Positions 5,901 to 8,900 of a stretch of DNA of 23,714 nt are shown one piece after another. Each line of letters opens with the position of its first letter. Position 1 is the first letter of the stretch. This stretch comes from Saccoglossus kowalevskii. Its lineage: Eukaryota > Hemichordata > Enteropneusta > Harrimaniidae. The stretch is taken from assembly GCF_000003605.2 (NCBI RefSeq), contig NW_003149766.1:260655-284368 (forward strand). Reading direction: 5' to 3'. The notes below the pieces were generated by a model that saw nothing but the letters and a program-made list of their open reading frames with translations, ran no database searches and was not told the origin of the DNA. The position numbers and the translations under genes are program-made.

Positions 5901-8900
5901 TCGAACGCCGCATCAGCTGGCCGTGTACCCTAAAAAGCAGGGATTGTCCGTTTAATTATCCATTATGTCATGAATTATAATGTAGCAGAAACCTGGAACA
6001 GGAAGTGACGTGAAAACGTTATATTGAGCGTGTTTTAGTAATTGCAACGTCTCGTTTACTCAATATGCGCAGTTGCGGTTATTCTTCCTCTGGGTGAGTG
6101 TTGCGCAATGGATTCTGGGACAATGAAGGAATATTTGACGGAATTTACTTGCTTACCTCGACACGCGTGTATGTGTTACTCATCATAGCAATCAGGGCGT
6201 GAGAAGTACGATGATGCCAGCACGTGGTAGAGACCATACGAGATTCAGCAACAGTCACAGTAAATGAGTGATTGGCTTCCACTTGTAGAGTTTCAAGATT
6301 AATCATGCCAAACAGTGACCAGTAGAGTGTCCTTATCGTTTGAATCAGTCTGAAAAATGGAAGTAAGGTTAAATTAATCGTTGTAAAATAACATCTAAAC
6401 CGCAGATCAAACTTTCACCCAGAGCCACATACCACATAGAAAGGAAAGCTGGATATCTGAAGCAATGTGATCTGCATAAATTAAGACTATTGGCGTAATT
6501 TACAGCGGCGTGAGAGAAAACCCGGAGTAAAGACGTTACGTCGGCGTATACGAGCCTAAAATAGCGGCGTTGTCATTGGAAGAGTGGTATCAGCGATAGA
6601 GAGTACTATTACATAACACACGACATACAACGACCAAGAGTTACCCCTTATTGATAAATTGATTACGTCAAATAAACGAAAAGTCCAAGACAAAACATGA
6701 CTAGACAGAGTCGCTGGACATCATAATACGAGTAGAACAAGCTTGTTTAAATAACGCCTTGCGAGGTTACCAATATTACTCACCATATAGTTGCCACCAA
6801 TTAGAATAGAACCACACGGTATTATTTAGATTCCGTGTTGTTCCATGTTATATTCACACACATACCTTCATATTACATTTTGCGTAACGGCCTCAGAACG
6901 GCCATGCTGCCACGTGCTGGTAAACTAATCTAACCATATCGTCTTTATTGGATATGTGATATCCGAAATCTCGATGTGAATTGTATCACCTTATGTGTCA
7001 TAGTCATATGTCACAGTTAGCTATGCAATATCTAATAACTAAATCCGATATGAATTGTATCACCTATTTAGATATGTAGTATCCAACAAATATCTAAGTA
7101 GGTGTTATAATTTATATCAGGTTTATTTGTTGGATACTGCATATCTAAGTAGGTGATATAAATCATATCGGATTTAGTTGTTGGATACTGCAATATAACC
7201 TACTTGGATTTTCAGTATCCAACAAATAAACCTGATTCAAATTATATCGCCTACTTAGATATGCGATATCGCACGCATAGATACTTACCCATCGAATGCA
7301 TTAGTGCATGTATATGCCTTGTCGGGGTCCTCTATCATACATTCGTATGATGCGTCACTGGCATTGAACTTGTAAAGTTGGGTTAATCCAATAGCGAAGG
7401 CGAGTAGCATCAAAAAGAAGATACACAAGAACTTTCCAATGTCATAGAACATCCCCCACAGTGAGATCTGAAGCGGACCAACGTGCCGGTTAATTACCAT
7501 AATATTGATCAGTCGTAAAAAGCTCACAATATTAGCCAATGCAAAAAGACCTTCTGAAATAAGGTTTGGATCGTTGCCCGGCCATGAGTTTCTCGTCTGG
7601 TCGTTGTCGGCAGCAATGTAAAACTGAGCATTGGCTTTTTCGGTCACTGACGTCACGAACTGCTGTACAGTGCTTGGTGAAATTTCCTTGTTAATTACTG
7701 AGTCATGAATTACAGTATCCAGCAAGTCTTGTAAAGTGTTATTAGCGACAGTCAGGTTCCACCAAGATGTGTTGTTAGGGAAGACGATGTCTGGCTTCTG
7801 CATGGACTGTACACACAATTGGGTGAATGGTTAGATTTTAGATATTATATAATTAGAAAAAAATTGTTTTTCACAATACATTTCATGATTTGTTATTTCA
7901 GGTGAACATTGTTTGTACATTGCGAATAAAAATGTCGCTAAAATTTAGTTTTTATCTACTATCTTGAGGTGATTGGACCATTTTATAATAGACAGGTTTC
8001 GAGGAATAGCGCCATCATTCGGCTTTCGTGCGAGAATGGAGGCGTGTTTGTGATTTGTGATTTTTAGCTCGCTAAATTTGTTCTTCGGTTTCCCTGGTTT
8101 CCAGTGTACTGATAAGTATCAACTCACCCTCACCCTCACCCTCCCTCCTATGCAGACGAAACATTGTTACACCAGAGTGTGCACATTTCTAAAATAACTG
8201 TGAAACTGTGACACGAAACTTGTCTATTATCCACCAGAGAGATGCAAGGGGAAACATCGAAAATATATTTCCACGAAACAAACGCGAGTTTTCATAAACA
8301 ATGTGTAAGTTAGGTAATATATTTATCATATAATTTGTGATATACCGTGTTATTGGCTCAAATAGTATAACGCTTTTAATATTGTTTGTGTTTGTTTTTC
8401 TTTGTTTGGCGGGGGGGGGGGGGGTTGTGACACAAGTAGACCTGATACGTACCGCTATCACCATGGCATACAAGAAAAATGCAGCGGATATGAAGTAGAG
8501 AGCGAGTTGTATAATATCCAGCAAATTCCATACGTCTCGACAGTACTCTCTGAAACCGCTGGTCCATACTTCTTTAAACTCCCTCCACGCCATAGCTGAA
8601 AAAATACATATCGATTAGAACACATAGTTACCGCCCCGTGGATCAAGTGGGGGGGTGTTCCCTACTGTTTTCCAAAATGTTGGTAACCAATGCGAGATTA
8701 TGTCATTTTTTTGGCATTTCCTCAAGAGTTTTTGTCAGATGGAATCGTTTGTTAATATTTTTCACTTTATTATCCTTGTCAATGTATCACGTTATGACCT
8801 CTGAACTTGTTGCAAAACTTCAGCTGCATATTGAACGCTACCCGTGTAGGAAGCCCCGAACATGTTTTATGCAATCACGCGCGGATTTAGGGAAAGGCGC

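Follow-up and report, generated by a model that had tools for sequence, protein, structure and literature searches.

Three single-base frame changes in the S6 segment of a TRPC-like channel gene of Saccoglossus kowalevskii: a probable local fault of the assembly

The TRPC-like locus

The window, that is, the whole stretch of 23,714 nucleotides of Saccoglossus kowalevskii DNA analysed here (bases 260655-284368 of contig C3977), carries a TRPC-like channel gene on its minus strand. Its exon frames were located by comparing it with the loci of paralogues in the same genome. A TRP_2 domain (PF08344, E 1.9e-15) lies at 11891-11370 (minus strand), downstream of N-terminal ankyrin-like frames whose ankyrin matches are weak and below the Pfam cut-off, and an Ion_trans match (PF00520, E 1.5e-7) falls in exon 8. 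When exons 8 and 9 alone were searched, the closest PDB structures were TRPC5 for exon 8 (E 1.2e-19) and TRPC4 for exon 9 (E 2.2e-6). The layout of the gene is as follows.

14325..14645, minus strand: exon 1 open frame, ankyrin-like, below the Pfam cut-off
12618..12869, minus strand: exon 2 open frame, ankyrin-like, below the Pfam cut-off
12259..12447, minus strand: exon 3 open frame, ankyrin-like, below the Pfam cut-off
11502..11891, minus strand: exon 4, TRP_2 domain
10701..10892, minus strand: exon 5, pre-S1, named by position
9995..10228, minus strand: exon 6, S1, named by position
8450..8593, minus strand: exon 7, S2-S3, named by position
7288..7800, minus strand: exon 8, S4-S5 region
6157..6349, minus strand: exon 9, pore helix, filter and S6 (sequence read directly, TRPC4/5 match), with an AG acceptor at 6351-6350 and a GT donor at 6156-6155
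5375..5542, minus strand: exon 10, TRP box region, EWKFHR
4607..4732, minus strand: exon 12, C-terminal region
2740..3003, minus strand: probable last exon, ending in a stop, with no paralogue match

The nearest paralogues, genes A and B, lie on contig C1752 (plus and minus strand, respectively) and form a clade with the window gene (support 100/100).

Elsewhere in the window, a 307-aa open frame at 21182-22105 (minus strand) contains a sulfotransferase domain (PF19798, E 3.8e-10). A short frame at 18845-19093 (plus strand) resembles by eye the C-terminal tail of a LINE reverse transcriptase protein; it has no Pfam match, and a similar stretch occurs in locus L029. The search of the window for RNA families returned no match at gathering scores.

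The S6 segment of exon 9

The initial annotation described an exon with conserved ends in one frame and an S6 displaced between them, and translation of 6349-6150 (minus strand) bears this out: the two ends of exon 9 share a frame and S6 is split over three, with YGLYHVL read from 6238 in the second and IIVLL from 6215 in the third. One-base-short codons occur near 6239, 6217 and 6199, so that the net effect is the loss of one codon with the frame kept.

6199..6240, minus strand: scrambled stretch, 42 nt read as 14 residues where the paralogues have upper S6, with three one-base-short codons
6239..6245, minus strand: first frame change, exact position ambiguous (frame-change alignment)
6216..6222, minus strand: second frame change, exact position ambiguous (frame-change alignment)
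6196..6200, minus strand: third frame change, exact position ambiguous (translation and frame-change alignment)
6166..6198, minus strand: inner S6 end with the frame restored, 11 residues, including the positions hand-aligned to the TRPC4 lower gate

Frame-change alignment against four paralogue proteins gave three one-base-short codons every time, at penalties of -14, -10 and -6, and none elsewhere in exon 9. At a penalty of -40 the aligner makes no frame change and opens amino-acid gaps or mismatches in the S6 stretch instead. Allowing frame changes raises the alignment score by 38 and 30 units with two references, a gain over frame-fixed alignment that none of 400 dinucleotide-preserving shuffles of the 42-nt stretch reached with either reference (shuffle maxima 21 and 13). 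The three-frame pattern of S6 is therefore not due to chance. At the nucleotide level, alignment with the gene A exon (L002) shows three single-base gaps in the S6 stretch together with further gaps at the 5' edge of the exon; with the gene B exon (L003) the first and third gaps are seen again and the middle breaks up into several intermingled gaps in both sequences. The earlier proposal that an ancestral S6 lost one base at each of three places is well supported.

As assembled, the window gene lacks a continuous hydrophobic S6, the pieces of which are found in other frames. The stretch as read has a mean hydropathy of -1.04, with 5 of its 14 residues charged or His, compared with 1.64 to 2.0 for the nine paralogue segments, and a subunit translated in this way would not be expected to form a normal pore. 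The longest single-base run over 6190-6250 is only 3, which rules out plain homopolymer slippage.

The part of S6 concerned can be placed on TRPC4, in which the lower-gate residues are I617, N621 and Q625 (PMC6079076). Counted by hand on the TRPC4 alignment, these residues fall on window codons 6192, 6180 and 6168, and the scramble corresponds to about TRPC4 600-614, in upper S6. Still in frame are the filter glycine (G577), the TRP box region and the inner S6 end, which includes lower-gate positions 617, 621 and 625. The initial annotation was thus right in placing the lesion in S6; its wording of a scrambled gate helix is less apt than 'upper S6', as the TRPC4 lower-gate positions align outside the scramble.

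Paralogous exons and other copies in the genome

The genome searched comprises 572 Mb in 4830 contigs. The ten matches listed for the protein search include the window exon and nine other exons, and S6 lies in one open frame in all nine. A stop within the match appears in four of the nine paralogue rows, where the query extends into the intron at both ends; the exon part that was compared is stop-free. None of the nine encodes the 14-residue stretch of the window; had relatives encoded it, this would have spoken for a genuine novel S6. The paralogues are free of the S6 break, although they are not alleles of the window gene.

A DNA search of the genome with 321 bases around exon 9 listed four matches: the exon and three stretches of paralogues that are 70 to 82% identical to the query. 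No second copy of exon 9, alternative exon or haplotig was found among them, and we consequently discarded the idea of a haplotig carrying another version of the exon. A search for relatives in viral contigs gave four stretches fitting a pattern, none of which was confirmed. In the literature, the titles and abstract beginnings among the matches listed mention no acorn-worm TRPC gene with a broken S6, which does not prove absence.

Genes A and B are inverted duplicates with a nucleotide divergence that ranges over ten exons (L014, L016, L017) from 1% in exon 3 to 18-19% in exons 9 and 6; this range suggests patchy gene conversion between the two. In exon 9 of gene B (L016, match 8605-8799), five consecutive S6 codons differ between A and B (HVVGI versus GIAAV). 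They sit at the same place as the window scramble and may reflect a cluster of small indels or a conversion.

In the mitochondrial contig C4830 (17037 nt; L034, L035) of the same genome, cox1 runs against the direction of nad1 and cox2, and what looks like a minus-strand nad6 follows cob; these genes were named by eye. Judged by eye at conserved sites, ATA fits Ile, AGA fits Ser and AAA fits Lys in this contig, and AGG is absent from cox1, nad1 and cox2. This code agrees with the row for Saccoglossus kowalevskii, not with that for Cephalochordata, in a published table (PMC3121625).

Constraint on the segment

Over the 14 comparable S6 codons, the window and gene A differ at 2, 2 and 9 sites in codon positions 1, 2 and 3, with three amino-acid changes; for gene B the S6 differences are 3, 3 and 6, with five amino-acid changes. 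The residues between the breaks (YGLYHV, GIIVLL and ALIAMM) match paralogue S6, which is well conserved among the ten genes, the window gene and its nine paralogues. Over the whole gene, divergence of the window gene from A and B is about 0.31 per nonsynonymous site and 0.78-0.79 per synonymous site, the synonymous value being saturated. These values, together with the lack of any break outside exon 9, indicate that the window gene has been under long-term constraint. Genes A and B were themselves still constrained (dN/dS 0.15).

The codon-position pattern, the constraint on the gene and the confinement of the damage to exon 9 together point to a segment that was selected as S6 until very recently, or still is. 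By this comparison of sequences, the breaks would be either very recent or not real.

Departures from columns invariant in the other genes number 20/139 in the window gene, 6/40 in gene E and 16/111 in gene I. The other seven genes show 0 to 10 each (at most 7.8%), a count in which A and B shield each other.

Accuracy of the assembly

We surveyed the ten genes for frame changes in 88 exon copies (5402 codons), several of the genes being partly covered; since the alignment is local, the survey applies to the aligned parts of the exons. The duplicate locus L008, the last exon, which has no paralogue match, and a small exon near 5000 were left out. Five frame changes and one stop were called, three of the frame changes being those of window exon 9. 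One further call, in exon 2 of L014 at 1841, was discounted by eye because it lies at an intron edge. The other is real: gene B has lost one base near L017:5874, close to the start of exon 4, and the sequence that follows is shifted. The stop is an in-frame TAA in the otherwise conserved S4-S5 exon (exon 8) of gene A, at L014:7125-7127 (DPD*VAEA).

Across the 684 codons aligned in 11 exons of the window gene, exon 9 is the one place with a break, and the seven other paralogues show neither frame change nor stop in 3340 aligned codons. The initial annotation had called the other twelve exons clean. This holds for ten of them (exons 1-8, 10 and 12), which have no frame change over their aligned parts.

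Two other gene families served as controls. Nearest neighbours were at least 92 nt apart among 26 HSP70 matches (5712 nt) and at least 105 nt apart among 56 myosin head matches (10098 nt), none being split by a short frame break. This control is a weak one, as by our own count stops occur inside 5 of the 26 HSP70 rows and 25 of the 56 myosin rows, which we took as match ends running into introns. From about 11892 clean nt, the upper error rate is 2.5e-4 per nt, at which three independent errors in 42 nt have a probability of about 8e-5 over all surveyed windows. A clustered cause is therefore needed. Three random lesions would fall within 42 nt with a probability of 0.0012 over the 2052 nt of coding sequence surveyed, compared with 0.12 in a bad patch of 193 nt.

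Origin of the frame changes

The three frame changes in S6 are best explained by a short patch of low-quality consensus in the assembly, a reading to which we assign a probability of roughly 65%. In the animal itself S6 would read normally in a single frame, three single bases having dropped out of the assembly in a short stretch of poor consensus that covers part of exon 9. Such a patch could have arisen through thin coverage, failed polishing or the forced collapse of two differing haplotypes. Because all three losses are of one base and of the same sign, they would sum to one codon and the frame would recover without any selection. The fault would then lie in the assembly and not in the animal.

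In favour of this explanation are the identical sign of the lesions, the S6-like residues between the breaks, the constraint on the gene and a clustering that fits a 193-nt patch. False indels are known to arise where allelic variants lie close together in a collapsed assembly (PMC8445201). In a survey of vertebrates and insects, 624 genes had candidate pairs of compensatory frameshifts, of which six were left after quality filters, and the regions spanned by such frameshifts are less conserved, according to a section heading of the same source (PMC8935012). Against a faulty patch, the assembly is otherwise fairly clean, so that a local defect must be assumed rather than a general error rate; there is no homopolymer longer than 3; and both nearest paralogues have one break each, while the other seven have none. 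The initial annotation had left the choice between an assembly error and a broken allele. Our inference favours the former, with the broken allele ranking lower.

That broken copy is nevertheless the chief competitor, although we consider it unlikely. The window gene would be a recently broken allele or a young pseudogene of a subfamily losing constraint, in which a cluster of deletions, perhaps from one error-prone repair event, destroyed S6, the preserved frame being incidental. The window gene, A and B, which form one clade (100/100), all carry breaks, compared with none of the seven other genes; a distribution of 3/3 against 0/7 has a chance of 1 in 120. This contrast is only suggestive, as the read lengths differ (145 codons for gene E and 308 for gene H, of up to 637). 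A stop made by substitution, such as that of gene A, is not a typical consensus error, and of 574 six-codon windows compared between A and B, the most divergent (9/18 nt) is this S6 stretch in gene B. Set against this, A and B were still under the constraint described above, and the departures of the window gene are no more than those of E and I, though more than those of the other seven. Three lesions in 42 nt with none elsewhere would again require a special cause. Because all three members of the clade and none of the other seven genes carry breaks, we leave a real break of whatever kind, all forms taken together, a sizeable minority share of the probability. A more ambitious variant is live turnover, in which an acorn-worm-type TRPC expansion is having one subfamily (the window gene, A and B) dismantled, with changes clustering in the pore helix and a pore-dead subunit that may assemble with intact paralogues; this we regard as improbable.

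Very doubtful is a compensated frameshift kept by selection, which would yield a pore-dead TRPC-like subunit with a polar peptide for upper S6, acting as a regulator or dominant negative in heterotetramers. Frame and splice sites are undamaged, as are the TRP box and the inner end of S6, and mutation of the LFW pore motif is described as dominant negative for TRPC channels (PMC6079076). The stretch as read is, however, far more polar than any paralogue S6, is shared by none of the nine and bears no sign of selection in its present frame. The suggestion that the allele persisted because it still makes the tail and the TRP box finds no support, since nothing shows selection on the protein as read. 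Correction of S6 by the cell, through repeated ribosomal frameshifting or base-insertion RNA editing, has the presence of S6 residues in other frames as its sole argument and would need three separate events in 42 nt where nine paralogues manage without; to our knowledge, no such correction exists for animal nuclear genes, and we give it next to no weight. Equally negligible is the view that exon 9 belonged to a pair of alternative exons and has decayed while an intact partner persists in an adjacent intron, as the protein and DNA searches found only one copy on contig C3977 among the 10 and 4 matches listed.

If the consensus patch is indeed the cause, the locus is a teaching case: a gene predictor would accept the exon, whose frame and splice sites survive, and a false pore sequence would end up in the database. 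If the break is real, a pore helix would hold a triple compensated frameshift, a rare event, and the subunit would be a natural candidate for a dominant negative.

Comparison with known systems

Indel errors in a collapsed or poorly polished consensus (PMC8445201) likewise produce false frame changes in an otherwise intact gene; the window case differs in being inferred from the assembled sequence alone. Compensatory frameshift pairs (pCFMs; PMC8935012) share with the window short indels whose effects cancel within tens of nucleotides and which enclose a shifted segment. The window differs from them in having three losses of the same sign instead of a pair, in a conserved segment and in one genome only.

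With the TRPC4 and TRPC5 channels, the window gene shares TRP_2, the Ion_trans match, the filter glycine, the TRP box region and the alignments of exons 8 and 9. The pore-helix motif LFW, described as conserved in all TRPC members (PMC6079076), is kept by the nine paralogues, whereas the window gene has LYW at 6327-6319 and is therefore called 'TRPC-like'. TRPC4 FTEFVG corresponds to FTVTVA. At 6166-6182 and in exon 9 of the nine paralogues, the positions hand-aligned to TRPC4 N621 and Q625 are Ser and Thr in all ten genes; Q625 is given as conserved in all TRPC channels (PMC6079076). The similarity of the gene as a whole to TRPC channels is not in doubt.
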